From an uncultured Bacteroidales bacterium (GTDB taxonomy: Bacteria; Bacteroidota; Bacteroidia; Bacteroidales; Muribaculaceae), in assembly GCA_947644715.1 (NCBI GenBank), contig CANSAP010000004.1:36674-100673 (forward strand): a DNA stretch of 64,000 bases, read 5' to 3'. A model generated the notes under the pieces. The model searched no databases and was not told the origin of the DNA. It saw only the letters and a program-made list of their open reading frames with translations. Shown here piece after piece: positions 37,973 to 58,543 of the stretch. Each line of letters starts with the position of its first letter. Position 1 is the first letter of the stretch. Made by a program: the position numbers and the translations under genes.

Positions 37973-39130
37973 TTATAGACCGCCTATCACAATCCAGCCT
38001 CCACGGTTACCTTTCTGCAAGGCCAGGTTGTGCCGCTTCATGGTGCCGTCAGGCAGCCTAAGATGGTAGGGAACAAATGTTATGCCCTCATTGCCTGAGT
38101 TAAATGCCTGTCCTACTGAGACAAGCACAGCGCCTTTGAGTTCAGGCTCATAGAGGGTCTGCATCATGTTATCATCCAATGCGTTATTCAGGATGGATAC
38201 GTCCCATGTCTCCAGGGCATTGAGGAAGGCTGAGGCTGCTTCTGTAGCGCTTAGGCCTTGCAGCCCCGGGAGTGAGCTTTCCGACATATCAATGAATCTT
38301 ACTCCGGAGGGGAGTTCCATCAGATTTGCTCGCGGCTCACCATAAATTATGTCAGTGATTTTCAAAATTACTGTTTCCTGTCTCCCTTTTACAATGCTGA
38401 CCGAAGCGGATTTCAGACGCTTGGTGTCAGCGTCAATCACATAGCGACGCAGATTCTCAGATTCAGCTATGGAAGCGTTCAACATATAAGGATTGTTGAA
38501 CTCACCCTGAGGCCGGGAATGAACCGTCAGAAGTATGTCTGCTCCCACCTTTTTCACTTGATACTCAACATCGGTGTTATTAATACAGTCTTGTAATTCT
38601 GCTTCGAGGATTCGTTCCGGGGTAAGCAATCGGGACATTTCACCAAGCAGTTCTTCGGGGGCAGCATGATTGAAGCGCCAACCGATATTCAGACAGTTTA
38701 TCCAACTGTAAATCACCCTGCTATTGCCGGCAGCCGTGCGTCCCCCCTTATCTATTCGCCAGGTCAGGGCAGAATCGGTTTTCGCAATTAAGATGCTATG
38801 CTCAACGAAACTGTCAGCTATATTGATATATTTGAAATTCTCCATAGGGCGTGTCTTTATCTCCACGGTCATTTCAATCCCCTGAGCATTTCGCAGAGTG
38901 TTAAGTGTGTCGGTCAGAATCTCTTTTGCAGAAATTACGGAGGGGAGTAATATCAATAGCAACAGGGCAGCAGCTACACAGGAGAATCCCACCCCCCATG
39001 CCCAACGGAATGATTTTCGTTTGCGAGTATTTGCATCAAGAGTCGACTCTATCTGGCGACGGAGCTGCTCAGTTGCCGCAAAGTCACGGCGGGGTTTCAG
39101 CATATCCCTTATCTCATTGTAATCTTCCAT
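37973..39130 (-). CDS. Anti-sigma-factor-like single-TM protein
   Basis: MEDYNEIRDMLKPRRDFAATEQLRRQIESTLDANTRKRKSFRWAWGVGFSCVAAALLLLILLPS; directly downstream of the ECF sigma gene. Confidence 0.65.
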   Translation of the reverse strand: MEDYNEIRDMLKPRRDFAATEQLRRQIESTLDANTRKRKSFRWAWGVGFSCVAAALLLLILLPSVISAKEILTDTLNTLRNAQGIEMTVEIKTRPMENFKYINIADSFVEHSILIAKTDSALTWRIDKGGRTAAGNSRVIYSWINCLNIGWRFNHAAPEELLGEMSRLLTPERILEAELQDCINNTDVEYQVKKVGADILLTVHSRPQGEFNNPYMLNASIAESENLRRYVIDADTKRLKSASVSIVKGRQETVILKITDIIYGEPRANLMELPSGVRFIDMSESSLPGLQGLSATEAASAFLNALETWDVSILNNALDDNMMQTLYEPELKGAVLVSVGQAFNSGNEGITFVPYHLRLPDGTMKRHNLALQKGNRGGWIVIGGL

Positions 39131-39132
39131 GA

Positions 39133-39642
39133 CTATCGTTGTTTCTGATACTGTATTCTTAATTTCTCCATCCCGGACTTGTAGCGGGATTTGACTGTGG
39201 AGACCGGGGTGGAAATTATTTGACTAATTTCAACGAATGACAGTTCGTCCATGACATTCATTCTTATTATCTCGGCCTCTCTAAGCGGTAATCTTTCAAG
39301 CAATCCGGTCAGACGCTCTATTTCCTCCAAGTCTAATTCCTCTTCCCGGGACAAGTCTGGGATTTCATCATCTTTGAAGGCAAGAGGACGAATGCTTTGA
39401 CCTTTTAAGTGAAAGTCCAGGCAGAGGTTATACACAATGCGAAACAGATACATCCTGATGCTTTCTTTACTGATTTTAGACAGGTCAGCCTCCAGCATTC
39501 TGCGCACAGCTTCATGCACAATATCCTCTGCATCAGCCGTATGGCCTACGCGAATCACTGCGAATCTGACCAGGTAATCAAGATTCTCTTCGATTACCCG
39601 GCCAATCCATTGCCGTGTCGCTATGTCGAGTGTTAACTTCAC
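39133..39642 (-). CDS. ECF RNA polymerase sigma factor
   Basis: HTADAEDIVHEAVRRMLEAD...LRFY-type region 2, GLLERLPLREAEIIRMNVMDELSFVEISQIISTPVSTVKSRYKSGMEKLR region 4. Confidence 0.92.
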   Translation of the reverse strand: MKLTLDIATRQWIGRVIEENLDYLVRFAVIRVGHTADAEDIVHEAVRRMLEADLSKISKESIRMYLFRIVYNLCLDFHLKGQSIRPLAFKDDEIPDLSREEELDLEEIERLTGLLERLPLREAEIIRMNVMDELSFVEISQIISTPVSTVKSRYKSGMEKLRIQYQKQR

Positions 39643-39798: not shown

Positions 39799-41007
39799 AT
39801 GGCTACTATCAGAGTGATTTTCAGAGCCTCCTCACCTATTGCGACCACCGGCACACTGTTCTTTCGCATCATTCACAAACGGAAGGTGCGGATGATTAGC
39901 ACGCACCACAGAATCATGCGCACGGAATGGGACACTGAAGCTGCTGGGATAATCTATGCCGGCGAGCCGGAACGCGTTGAGTATCTGAAAGATGTGCAGC
40001 GCGACCTGAATGACGTGATGGCCCGTTTTCGTCTGATTACCTGTGACTTGGATTGCGCCGGGGCGGACTACTCGGTGGATGCCGTGATAGAACAATGCCG
40101 GCAGCGAAGCTTGGCCGGAGACTTCGTGGCCTTTGTACGTCAGCATATTTCGGAGCTCAGGCTCGCTGGCCGGGTGCAAGCCGCTAGGCATTATGCTACT
40201 GCGCTAAACAGTTTCATCAGATTCAATGGTGAAGCGGGGGTACCCTTCGAGGCAGTGGACGCCAATCTGATGACGCGCTACGAGTGTTATCTCAAGCAGA
40301 AGGGACTCTGTCCGAACAGCACTTCCTATTATATGCGGAATCTGCGAGCTGTCTATAATCATGCAGTGGAGCTGAAGCTGAGCAGCCAACGTCACCCATT
40401 TAAGAATGTTTATACCGGTGTAGCCAAGACGGCAAAGAGGGCGCTGAGTTTGGAGTCTATACGCGCGTTGCGCAATCTGGAGCTGAGGCATGACCCGCTC
40501 ACGCTGCTTGCCAGAGACCTGTTTTTGTTCAGCTTTTACACGCGGGGAATGGCTATTATTGATATGGCGTACCTCAGGAGGGGCAATCTGAAAAATGGGA
40601 GCTTAACCTATCTGCGACGCAAGACAGGCCAGTATCTAACGATGAAATGGGAGCCTCAGATGCAGGCGATTCTGAGTCGTCACACAGCCGCCGACTCTGA
40701 TTTCCTATTTCCCATGATTGATTCTCATAAGCCTGACTTCCGCAAACAGTATCTCAATTCTTACTGTAAATTGGTAAGACGCTTAAAGAAAATCGGGAAA
40801 ATGCTGGGGCTGAATGAACCTCTGACTTTCCATCGCAGCCGACACAGCTGGGCCTCCATTGCCCGCGATAATAATGTGCCTCTCTCGGTTATCTGTGAGG
40901 GAATGGGCCACGACTCCGAAAAGACAACTCGCATCTATCTCTCTTCGTTGGCCACTTCGGTAGTGGACAAAGCTAACCGAAGCTTAATCAGTCTTCTTGA
41001 GAAGTAA
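39799..41007 (+). CDS. Tyrosine site-specific recombinase (phage integrase family, Bacteroidetes type)
   Basis: Start at 39799 MATIRVIFRASSPIATTGTLFFRI; catalytic region FSFYTRGMAIIDMAYLRRGNL...LTFHRSRHSWASIARDNNVPLSVICEGMGHDSEKTTRIYLSSL. Confidence 0.93.
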   Translation: MATIRVIFRASSPIATTGTLFFRIIHKRKVRMISTHHRIMRTEWDTEAAGIIYAGEPERVEYLKDVQRDLNDVMARFRLITCDLDCAGADYSVDAVIEQCRQRSLAGDFVAFVRQHISELRLAGRVQAARHYATALNSFIRFNGEAGVPFEAVDANLMTRYECYLKQKGLCPNSTSYYMRNLRAVYNHAVELKLSSQRHPFKNVYTGVAKTAKRALSLESIRALRNLELRHDPLTLLARDLFLFSFYTRGMAIIDMAYLRRGNLKNGSLTYLRRKTGQYLTMKWEPQMQAILSRHTAADSDFLFPMIDSHKPDFRKQYLNSYCKLVRRLKKIGKMLGLNEPLTFHRSRHSWASIARDNNVPLSVICEGMGHDSEKTTRIYLSSLATSVVDKANRSLISLLEK

Positions 41008-41014
41008 TTCTTTC

Positions 41015-41042
41015 GCCGGGGAGGGGAAGTCCATCCCCCGGC
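41015..41042. terminator. GC-rich hairpin after the recombinase
   Basis: GCCGGGG (41015-41021) / CCCCGGC (41036-41042). Confidence 0.45.
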
Positions 41043-41068: not shown

Positions 41069-41092
41069 ATTCTCTATGTAAGAGAATTACAG
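41069..41092 (+). repeat. Left inverted repeat (IRL) of the invertible promoter
   Basis: ATTCTCTATGTAAGAGAATTACAG; exact reverse complement at 41271-41294. Confidence 0.92.
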
Positions 41093-41109
41093 CAAGTAAA
41101 ATTTGACTG

Positions 41110-41139
41110 CAAAGTTACGAAAATAATTCGAGAATACAA
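41110..41139 (-). promoter_or_regulatory. Promoter inside the invertible segment, currently facing leftward
   Basis: Minus strand ATTG (TTG 41139-41137)-N19-TAACTTTG (41117-41110), matching the Bacteroidetes -33/-7 consensus. Confidence 0.82.
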
Positions 41140-41270
41140 TATTATAGGCATCTGCCTGATTTATGAATCTGTACCAATGGTTGCACTTAAGCACACAATT
41201 GTTTTACAAAAGTGCATAATGGCGTTTTCTATTATGCTGGAACCCAATATATTATGCACTGTTTTTCCAA

Positions 41271-41294
41271 CTGTAATTCTCTTACATAGAGAAT
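41271..41294 (-). repeat. Right inverted repeat (IRR) of the invertible promoter
   Basis: CTGTAATTCTCTTACATAGAGAAT, perfect 24-bp reverse complement of IRL. Confidence 0.92.
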
Positions 41295-41499
41295 GCAAGC
41301 CAAGGTGATTTGTATAGCAGCAAACAAGCCTGTCAATCACTCGGATTGAGACAATGATATTGAGTGAGAAGTTTTTCGCAACCACCCGTAACTTTCAGTG
41401 CATCAGTATATTACATGCAACTGGAAGCGTCAGAGAATTGTCTGGACTTCAAAAAAAGGATGATATCCTGACGCTTTAACGTCTGCTTTTTAGACCACT

Positions 41500-42042
41500 A
41501 TGGAGGATGCCTCTCAACTCAAGCATTGGTTCGTGCTTCGTGATTTCAAGAAATGGAATGCGAAGGCTCCGGCCTATAAGGCGCTGCCTCAGCTCGGCAT
41601 CAGATGCTTCACTCCGATGCGATGGACAGTCAATATCCGCGGTAACAAACGGCAACGCGAATATCTCCCCGTAATTCAAAACCTGCTTTTTGCTTACGAC
41701 TCACGTGAGAGGCTTGACCCGATAATAGCCGCCGACAAATCTCTGCAATACCAGTACCGACGCGGAGGTGGCAGTGCTAATCCAATGACGGTTTCTGACA
41801 AAGATATGAACCGCTTCATTGAAGCTGTGAGCTGCGATGCCAATCCTGTTTTCTACACGGTTGAAGAACTAACCGACGATATGCTCGGACGAGAGATAAT
41901 CGTAACCGGAGGACCGCTTGACGGCTACGAAGGAACGTTGCTGAAAATGCAAGGCTCCAAAAAGAAGCGCCTCATCGTTAAAATCCCCGGATTAATGGCT
42001 GCCGCCGTTGAGGTTAATCCGGATTACATACAGTTCGTGTGA
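41500..42042 (+). CDS. upxY: UpxY-family NusG-like transcription antiterminator
   Basis: KHWFVLRDFKKWNAKAPAYKALPQLGIRCFTPMRWTVNIRGNKRQREYLPVIQNLLFAYDSRERLDPII...GPLDGYEGTLLKMQGSKKKRLIVKIPGLMAAAVEV; NGN- and KOW-like. Confidence 0.9.
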   Translation: MEDASQLKHWFVLRDFKKWNAKAPAYKALPQLGIRCFTPMRWTVNIRGNKRQREYLPVIQNLLFAYDSRERLDPIIAADKSLQYQYRRGGGSANPMTVSDKDMNRFIEAVSCDANPVFYTVEELTDDMLGREIIVTGGPLDGYEGTLLKMQGSKKKRLIVKIPGLMAAAVEVNPDYIQFV

Positions 42043-42058: not shown

Positions 42059-43342
42059 ATGCCGATACAAATGCTTCCCCGACTGACATTTACGAGTGTT
42101 CCCTCGGAACAGCTTGCAGACTTGGCGTATGCCCTTGATTGCTGTCTGAGTGCCTCATCAGGTATGAGTTCTGAACGGCACCGGCAAGTGGCTCAGGCAT
42201 GCAAGCTCAAAACTCAACAACTTCTTCGAGAGCTGCGTCACAGGCAAGCAAAGGAGGGAACAACCCCTCCCCTCGCCTACGCCGGTTGGATGCTGACCCG
42301 CAACGCCGAAGCGCTTGCCGGCATTTCTTGGGATGGCATCACAGCTGACTATCACAGCATTATGTGCTGCATCTGCGCCCTGCATATCAGCAACAACAAC
42401 AAGATTAAACGCCTGATTAGACCTTGGTTGGATTCTGCTGACCATAACTCAATCACCTACTTTGCGGCAGCCTGTCGATATTACTCTGCAATCAAGAATA
42501 TAACGGCTCGGCGCAAGGTTGTTAGGGAATTTGATCAATTCATTGCCGGACTCGATTATTCACAACTTACGGAAACAGAGCTTCTAAGGCTCCACTCTAT
42601 GAGTGCCCTTTGGCTGGAACGCCGCGAACTGAAAGGTTTGGAGCAAAATACCCGCACAGATTTTTTGCGGATAGCAAATGCTTTGCCCGCCTCCTCTCCG
42701 GCACGGTTGCTTCAGTTATCCGAAAACCTTGAGGCAGAAAATCGCGCCCGGTGCTTATCTCTAACCTGCTCTCAGCGACAGCCGTTAAAAGTCTTTGTTT
42801 CAGCACAGTATCCTGACGACGACTCATTAGCAGCGTACATCACCGCACTTACCGGCAAGCCCTCATATCACTCTCGGGAGATGCTGATTGGAATTGCTGA
42901 CTACCTCCAGACCTCCATCATCGAAAAGGGCAAAGCGGCCGACTACATAGCGGCAATCACAGCCATCCTGAACACAGGAATGCCACACTTCAATTATCCG
43001 AAGATAGCGAAGGGGCTGGAGCAAACTGTCAAGCAGCTGGCGAAATCGCATGCCAAGCCTCGCCTTGAGCTTGCGGCAGCCTACAACACTCTGTGGCAAC
43101 AAACCCTGAAGTCCGGCTACCTTAACCACTACGAACAAATAGTCAGACACTGCTATTTTACATTAGCCGGCAAACGCACCTACACCAACCTCGGCATAGA
43201 CACAAGCGACCCGGATTCCCTCCGGACCGCCCTCAACTTCCTGTCGGCCAACCGCGAAGCCCTATGGGTAATGAGCGACCAATACGACGTCGACACGCTC
43301 CTCCGCCGGTATTCACAAACAAGCCGTCACCCCAACTACTGA
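42059..43342 (+). CDS. Protein of unknown function in the upxZ position
   Basis: 427 aa (start 42059, MPIQMLPRLTFTSVPSEQ); helical, no motif I recognise; immediately downstream of upxY. Confidence 0.55.
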   Translation: MPIQMLPRLTFTSVPSEQLADLAYALDCCLSASSGMSSERHRQVAQACKLKTQQLLRELRHRQAKEGTTPPLAYAGWMLTRNAEALAGISWDGITADYHSIMCCICALHISNNNKIKRLIRPWLDSADHNSITYFAAACRYYSAIKNITARRKVVREFDQFIAGLDYSQLTETELLRLHSMSALWLERRELKGLEQNTRTDFLRIANALPASSPARLLQLSENLEAENRARCLSLTCSQRQPLKVFVSAQYPDDDSLAAYITALTGKPSYHSREMLIGIADYLQTSIIEKGKAADYIAAITAILNTGMPHFNYPKIAKGLEQTVKQLAKSHAKPRLELAAAYNTLWQQTLKSGYLNHYEQIVRHCYFTLAGKRTYTNLGIDTSDPDSLRTALNFLSANREALWVMSDQYDVDTLLRRYSQTSRHPNY

Positions 43343-43471: not shown

Positions 43472-45001
43472 ATGTCCTCTAATAAGACAGTAGCAAAAAA
43501 TACGATAATACTGTATATACGTATGGTGGTCACAATGCTAATTGGCATGTGGACGTCGCGTATTGTGCTAAATGCACTTGGATTCACAGACCAAGGTCTA
43601 TATAATGTTGTTGGAGGTGTAGTTGGGTTCTCCTCTCTTATCACAGCATCCATTAGTGGTTCCATCACCCGCTTCATAACATATGAAATTGGAAGAGGCA
43701 ATATTACTAAGATTAACATAGCAGTTCAGAACGCTGTTTCAGTTCAATGGTTTTTAGCCGCTATAGTATTAATTATCGGAGAAACTTTGGGACTATGGTT
43801 TATCAACACCCAATTAGTTATCCCTGAAGGGAGACTATTTGCAGTTAATTGTGTTTATCAATTCTCAATTGCCAATATCGTAATTGTATTACTATCCAGT
43901 GCGCCTAACGCTCTCATCGTTGCCTATGAGAGAATGAATGTATTTGCTTTCGTTTCCATGGCCACAGCAGTAGGCTCATTTTGTATTAGTTTAATAATTG
44001 CTCATTGTTCTTTCGATCGCTTGATTTTCTACTCCTTTCTCCTCTCTTTTCAATCTTTAATTGTCCGAATATTCTACTACATCTATATAAAAAAAACATT
44101 TCCCGAATTGCGCCTCAAATTCGGATTTGACCGACAAATATTCAAACCAATCTTTGCCTTTGCCGGTTGGAATGCAATTGGAACGTCTTCCTCTATATTA
44201 CGTACGTCCGGCACAAGTGTATTATTAAATATCTTTGGCGGTCCGATGGCCAATACGATTAATGGAATAGCAAATCAGATAAATGCGCTTGCAACCATAT
44301 TAGTAAACGATTTCACCACAGCTTACTCTCCGCAAATTACCAAACGCTATGCGGCAGGAGAGTATCATAGCCTGATTACGTTTACTCATCAATGTGCCAA
44401 AATATCATATTCTTTAATAGCGTCCATTGCCATTCCGGTGCTATTCAATATGGAACCATTATTAATACTTTGGCTAAAAAAGATTCCACCGGGCACCTGC
44501 ATATTCGGACAATTAATAATTATTTATTCATTAATTGACGGATTATGCCGTCCCCTTATTTGCGCGAAAAGTGCAACCGGAGATATACGGAATTATCAGA
44601 TAATTGTAGGTGGGATATTAGTTCTGACATTACCATTGACTTACATCTTTTTGAAAATGGGTTTACCCTTGTATTTCTCTTACGTTTCAATGGTGATAAC
44701 AGCCGTTGGAGCTTTTATCGCACGAATGGTTATGCTTAAAAATTCCATACCATATTGGAGTTCGTTTGCATTTATAAAGAAAATTGTATTACGGTGCTTG
44801 TTAGCAACATTGGTATGCCTGATTGTTCCCGCAATATTACAGCAGACAATGCCAACTAACACCTATTCTATACTTGCACAGTTTGGTATCGGAGTCATGT
44901 GGTGTGCAGGTAGCCTGTTTCTAATTGCGATGAATCAACATGAACAAAAATTTGTTATTGAATTACTCAGGAAATTAAAGTCAAAAATTTTTAGACAATG
45001 A
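43472..45001 (+). CDS. Polysaccharide flippase (Wzx/MATE-like)
   Basis: 509 aa; TIILYIRMVVTMLIGMWTSRIVLNALGFTDQGLYNVVGGVVGFSSLITASISGSITRFITYEIGRGN; about 12-14 TM. Confidence 0.9.
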   Translation: MSSNKTVAKNTIILYIRMVVTMLIGMWTSRIVLNALGFTDQGLYNVVGGVVGFSSLITASISGSITRFITYEIGRGNITKINIAVQNAVSVQWFLAAIVLIIGETLGLWFINTQLVIPEGRLFAVNCVYQFSIANIVIVLLSSAPNALIVAYERMNVFAFVSMATAVGSFCISLIIAHCSFDRLIFYSFLLSFQSLIVRIFYYIYIKKTFPELRLKFGFDRQIFKPIFAFAGWNAIGTSSSILRTSGTSVLLNIFGGPMANTINGIANQINALATILVNDFTTAYSPQITKRYAAGEYHSLITFTHQCAKISYSLIASIAIPVLFNMEPLLILWLKKIPPGTCIFGQLIIIYSLIDGLCRPLICAKSATGDIRNYQIIVGGILVLTLPLTYIFLKMGLPLYFSYVSMVITAVGAFIARMVMLKNSIPYWSSFAFIKKIVLRCLLATLVCLIVPAILQQTMPTNTYSILAQFGIGVMWCAGSLFLIAMNQHEQKFVIELLRKLKSKIFRQ

Positions 45002-57511: not shown

Positions 57512-58543
57512 ACCGGATGCAATGGGTGGATGCCATGCGTGGCTTCTCTATGCTAATCGTTGTGTTTGGACACGTCCTGCTCTCAATGGGCATCGGCGGT
57601 TATAACTCTTTCCTAAGCTCCATTCTGCTCACTTTCAGGATGCCTCTCTTCTTCTTTGTGAGCGGATTCTTCTCTTTTCGGGCAATAGAATGGTGGAACA
57701 AAAAGCGCATTGGAGATATTCTTAAACGCAAACTTCAGGCTCAGATTTTGTGCACCGTCCTCTTTCTCGCTGTGTATCAGTATGTTAGAGTTGGGGGGGG
57801 TGAATTTTGAGCATGGATTCGGTGGATATTGGTTCACAATTGTGCTGTTCCAGATGTATATCTGCTACCTCCTTTTGTCTCTTATTTCGCGCCTACTGAA
57901 ACGCAATATCACAGTCCCGGCCATGATTCTGCTATCCGTAATGGGAATCGGCATTCTCGTGATTTACAGTCGTGATTCAAAAATTTGGGAATTCCTGTGT
58001 TGGGAAAACCTGTGCAAATACTTTCAGTTTTTCGCCTTGGGCATCATCTGCTCAAAATACAAAGAGCGAACTTTCAAATTATTAGCCAACAATAAATTTA
58101 CGGCATTCGTAATCATCGGATGGATTGTCTGCATGATGTTATGGTACAACGTCGGATTCCGCCAAACCTCCGGCATGCTATATTCCTTTGTCCATGATAT
58201 TCTCGTAAGATACTTTGCCCTATTCACCGTAATCTCTGTCTTCTATGGATACCGAGATCATTTCTCCGCTACCACCCAGTCAAGCAGAACACTCAGGTTT
58301 ATCGGCCAACGAACTCTGGACATCTACATGATTCATTACTTCCTCCTCCCCAACCTGTCAACACTCTCGAAATGGCTTTCGCCTGACAATCAGATAATCA
58401 TCCAGCTCCTAATAGCCTCGGTTATTACAGCCGCCATCGTCAGCATGTGCTTGCTCATCAGCGCAGTCTTACGAAAAAGCAGCGTACTGGAATCCTGGTT
58501 GTTTGGAGTTAAACCGAAACGCCTCACCACTACCCCCGCATGA
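57499..58543 (+). pseudogene. Acyltransferase-3 family O-acyltransferase, frameshifted at a G8 tract (phase-variable or disrupted)
   Basis: Frame 1: MSNLNRMQWVDAMRGFSMLIVVFGHVLLSMG...LAVYQYVRVGGGEF*. Frame 2 continues: ...GGVNFEHGFGGYWFTIVLFQMYICYLLLSLIS. The switch lies at the poly-G run 57793-57800. Confidence 0.85.

Follow-up and report, generated by a model that had tools for sequence, protein, structure and literature searches.

Switches that place an invertible promoter before polysaccharide genes have been described repeatedly in the Bacteroidales. In Bacteroides fragilis, the recombinase Tsr19 (BF2766) inverts a promoter immediately downstream of its own gene (IVp-I) and thereby controls an exopolysaccharide (EPS) (PMC4747536). 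This promoter is predominantly OFF, both in culture and in the majority of faeces tested, and two possibilities have been suggested by the authors, namely that expression of the recombinase is suppressed or that promoter orientation is regulated (PMC4747536). The capsule promoters governed by Mpi (Bacteroides PSA–PSH; B. intestinalis PVR7–12) are likewise invertible, measure about 180–200 bp and precede capsule operons, and are inverted in trans by a serine recombinase at repeats of the type GTTCGTTTAA / ARACGTTCGTN (PMC8375218). The IP-ARG loci of Bacteroidales comprise an invertase, an invertible promoter and then upxY or wecA (PMC8748976), and UpxY genes are enriched beside invertons (PMC11892184).

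In this study, we analysed a 64-kb stretch of Muribaculaceae DNA (the window), in which an UpxY-led EPS operon had been predicted to lie behind an invertible promoter sequenced in the OFF orientation. Comparison with cassettes of the same genus strongly supports this original prediction. We put at roughly 0.9 the probability that the locus is a self-contained phase switch, in which a local recombinase would invert the OFF-stored promoter of the operon. Tsr19, the Bacteroidales invertase–promoter–upxY loci and the association of UpxY with invertons together place it in an already known kind of switch. It is functionally akin to Tsr19/IVp-I in having a local tyrosine recombinase, an adjoining downstream promoter, an EPS operon and an OFF state. 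However, IVp-I has extra copies of its inverted repeat (IR), whereas the window genome has one pair; Tsr19 also inverts a distant promoter (PMC4747536); and UpxY is the first gene past the switch in the window. The Mpi promoters differ from the present locus, where the recombinase is of the tyrosine type and encoded in cis, and where the repeats are TCTCT-N5-AGAGA dyads. The layout of the IP-ARG loci is shared, and is also seen on a human-faecal scaffold (L185) where UpxY is followed by a WecA-like gene, but no resistance genes were identified at the window locus. The features of the locus are collected in Table 1.

Table 1. Features of the switch and of the operon behind it (positions within the 64-kb window).
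Feature	Position	Strand	Basis or remark
Tyrosine recombinase, 402 aa, presumed local invertase	39799–41007	+	Pfam Phage_int_SAM_5 (2.7e-19), Phage_integrase (5.8e-11)
GC-rich terminator-like hairpin between recombinase and IRL	41015–41042		Folds as RNA of either strand at about -20 kcal/mol
Left inverted repeat (IRL)	41069–41092	+	Core dyad ATTCTCT-ATGTA-AGAGAAT
Invertible segment, 178 bp	41093–41270		
Bacteroidales promoter TTG-N19-TAACTTTG	41110–41139	-	TTG 41139–41137, TAACTTTG 41117–41110; points away from upxY (OFF)
Right inverted repeat (IRR)	41271–41294	-	
upxY leader	41295–41499	+	5' UTR of about 240 nt in the ON state (in-silico inversion)
UpxY-family transcription antiterminator, 180 aa	41500–42042	+	NF033644, 4.1e-35, 121 bits (cut-off 100)
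EPS/capsule biosynthesis cluster	42059–63906	+	Pfam, NCBIfam

The two arms match perfectly over 24 bp, as had been predicted, and their similarity reaches 33 nt at 88%; from repeat to repeat the element measures 226 bp. Chance would place a perfect 24-bp IR in a span of about 250 bp in well below one per million windows, and near-identical repeats surrounding a short promoter segment are the anatomy of an inverton. The repeat, ATTCTCTATGTAAGAGAATTACAG, is not of the ARACGTTCGTN type found in Mpi (serine) invertons (PMC8375218). Each arm contains the dyad ATTCTCT-ATGTA-AGAGAAT, unmentioned in the original prediction; this dyad is shaped like the core site of a tyrosine recombinase. These two copies are the only ones in the 2.40-Mb assembly, even with three mismatches allowed. 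The IR pattern was not found in 60 relatives or in viral contigs; a scan of genome contigs returned just four loci, all more distant, and no second strain of the species.

The promoter was found on the minus strand exactly as described, pointing away from upxY, and its -7 box is the single TAnnTTTG of the segment. The assembly carries this OFF orientation only. When the segment is inverted in silico, the box falls at 41246–41253, about 240 nt before upxY, precisely where it had been placed. Promoters were scored with a matrix for the -7 box, derived from 36 cassettes with the window locus left out, to which a simple TTTG match 19–21 bp upstream was added. By this measure the window promoter comes out on top of all 127,916 positions of the 64 kb, and no competing promoter was evident in the upxY leader, where the best plus-strand site ranks only 668th. 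The original prediction had named a constitutive promoter in the interval 41294–41500 as evidence against itself; the scan thus gives no support to one.

The recombinase belongs to the phage-integrase family and possesses the catalytic R-K-HxxR-H-Y set, and ten aligned relatives all share R249, K275, R348, H371 and Y380. Its first Arg lies within a TRGM/LRGM motif, as in all aligned relatives, whereas an aligned XerA-like chain uses another position. It is the one full-length member of its family in this genome and sits on a long branch of the recombinase tree. Its predicted location upstream of IRL is correct, although the open reading frame, ending at 41007, leaves a gap of 61 bp instead of the 62 bp given. 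Many relatives have a hairpin at the place corresponding to that in the gap; since a perfect T-run is absent, the hairpin is treated here as a putative terminator. We considered silencing of the recombinase by antisense transcription from the OFF promoter and set this aside, because the intervening hairpin argues against read-through. Just upstream of the recombinase, and divergent from it, the minus strand (37973–39642) encodes a sigma factor of the ECF type and a protein of 385 aa that has no Pfam match and is possibly its regulator.

Past the right repeat, the first gene of the polysaccharide locus encodes the UpxY antiterminator, and the polysaccharide biosynthesis genes lie 3' of it on the same strand, which is the arrangement of a UpxY locus. 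The cluster includes a pyruvyl transferase, many glycosyltransferases, an EpsG-type polymerase, UDP-galactopyranose mutase, an acyltransferase, LicD, a cytidylyltransferase and an aminotransferase. Its predicted identity as a capsule/EPS cluster led by upxY is secure on the strength of these glycan genes and of an NF033644 match above the cut-off. A gene for the inhibitor UpxZ is expected after upxY, and UpxZ is much shorter than 427 aa. The second gene of the operon (42059–43342), which occupies the expected place, encodes a 427-aa product that matches nothing in Pfam or NCBIfam and bears no relation to the gene in second place at L052, a UpxY locus of the same genus. The third gene (43472–45001; 509 aa) also has no Pfam or NCBIfam match. 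The leader contains a strong hairpin (41425–41476), with a stability not significantly above that of shuffled sequences (z-score -1.6). No Rfam match was obtained around the locus, and no common structure was evident when each leader of the UpxY loci was folded. Within the cluster, the acyltransferase (PF01757; 57499–58543) is split into two frames at an eight-G tract (57793–57800), the one G/C run of at least eight in the window. A contingency site at which slipped-strand mispairing varies the O-acylation of a sugar is one possible explanation, an error of assembly another.

Relatives of the recombinase are present in 106 of 111 genomes of the genus, and at 39 of 101 examined loci paired IRs, each containing a dyad of 17 bp (about ATCTCT-N5-AGAGAT), lie downstream of the recombinase. 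TAnnTTTG occurs 27–40 bp from the outer IR edge in 37 of these 39 cassettes, 36 of them at 27–32 bp, compared with 1.9 on average and at most six in shuffled segments. In 34 of 36 cases the first gene past IRR shares the strand of the recombinase gene. Counting loci some of which are related, the box points toward the recombinase (OFF) in 35 and toward the gene (ON) in two, L083 and L142; alignment gives the ON direction also for L055, where the box has decayed to TAACTTTC. The segment end of L142 matches the opposite end in the OFF loci L043, L077 and L134, and the segment of L083 matches that of L125 in reverse. Such opposite-orientation homology between species is as inversion predicts. Contigs ending 100–300 bp past the recombinase (11 of 101 loci) were considered as a sign of mixed orientation, but few end near the dyad and they were dropped as evidence.

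The order recombinase, dyad IR, promoter and UpxY is repeated at four loci of the same genus (L037, L052, L071 and L077) and on the human-faecal scaffolds L183 (ON), L185 and L187 (OFF). L183 (MT835622), L185 (MT836255), L187 (MT835707) and L184 (MT835494) are unannotated and filed as 'Bacteriophage sp.'; they encode recombinases of 45–50% identity with the same IR–promoter cassette, and UpxY in three. Marked as unverified, these scaffolds may be bacterial or mobile capsule islands. Other cassettes precede quite different genes: DUF3575/fimbrillin operons (L065, L080, L087, L140, L150 and L159), FHA/kinase operons (L055, L091, L134, L138 and L142), SrfB (L035 and L151), a Type ISP restriction-modification gene (L086, OFF), a GmrSD/HNH-type restriction endonuclease (L081, OFF) and a DISARM-like Snf2 helicase from a MAG of Alloprevotella (L170, OFF). 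Operons of the SspB/SspC/SspD type confer phosphorothioate-linked defence. Homologues follow the cassette at L092 and L039 (PADLOC) and, judged by like layout, at L038 and L062; all four loci were assembled OFF. An additional minus-strand reading frame of about 171 aa lies between recombinase and IR at each of them. Cargo types are scattered over the recombinase tree, Ssp excepted. Narrow literature searches found no paper on this dyad family before Ssp operons.

From these comparisons we infer that the window locus phase-varies. The recombinase would bind the dyad of each arm and invert the 226-bp segment. In the OFF state the sole promoter would fire leftward and face the recombinase gene from its 3' side; the hairpin there probably stops transcription, so that the operon is predicted to be silent in the sequenced state. 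In the ON state transcription would start from the relocated -7 box and run across IRR into the leader and upxY; UpxY could then act in cis as an operon-specific antiterminator, allowing polymerase to reach the end of a glycan cluster that exceeds 20 kb, with a presumed change of the cell surface.

Two features of the locus suggest that such a switch might have decayed or become locked: the -7 box lies 40 bp from the outer dyad edge instead of the 27–32 bp seen elsewhere, and the recombinase branch is long. The switch would then be real by ancestry and now fixed OFF through decay of recombinase or site, with the EPS cluster silent or driven from elsewhere, and the single orientation in the assembly would agree with this. 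We consider it unlikely, given that the recombinase frame is intact with every catalytic residue in place, the promoter is intact and top-ranked, and the arms are identical over 24 bp, as ongoing recombination would maintain. Somewhat less probable still is inversion in trans by another recombinase, a Mpi- or Tsr-like master, the adjacent gene having a different role. In B. fragilis, Mpi often operates switches in trans (PMC4747536), and two UpxY loci with dyad IRs (L098 and L102) have no recombinase relative within 1.5 kb upstream; against this, the IR is confined to this one place in the genome, and recombinase family and dyad IR adjoin at 39 loci. That there is no switch at all, the IR being an mRNA hairpin or an integration relic and the promoter driving a leftward transcript, is very improbable: each arm is a dyad and the related recombinases are integrase-like, but the fixed IR–promoter–IR anatomy is seen repeatedly, with promoters facing either way, and leftward within reach there is nothing to express but antisense to the recombinase.

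A self-contained switch, as preferred here, adds a capsule/EPS phase switch to a little-studied Bacteroidales genus, its kind being well known in gut Bacteroidales. The more interesting by-product is that the same kit stands, nearly always OFF, before fimbrillin, SspBCD, Type ISP restriction-modification and DISARM-like operons. Orientation in an assembly may reflect the majority state of the population, and the 35:2 bias spans very different cargo genes. A tentative reading, possible but the less probable side of the question, is that Bacteroidales possess a single portable module, made up of the recombinase, its TCTCT-N5-AGAGA repeats and a promoter at a fixed position, and have set it time and again in front of operons that are costly but unrelated to one another: capsule, fimbriae, SspBCD and restriction-type phage defence. 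On this reading the bias to OFF would be a property of the module itself, for example by orientation-dependent control of the recombinase, and would not be set by selection on each cargo. The compact signature of recombinase, 17-bp dyad IR and -7 box about 30 bp inside is searchable and finds dozens more switches, some of them before anti-phage operons, which makes ON/OFF control of defence and surface at the level of the population testable in metagenomes.
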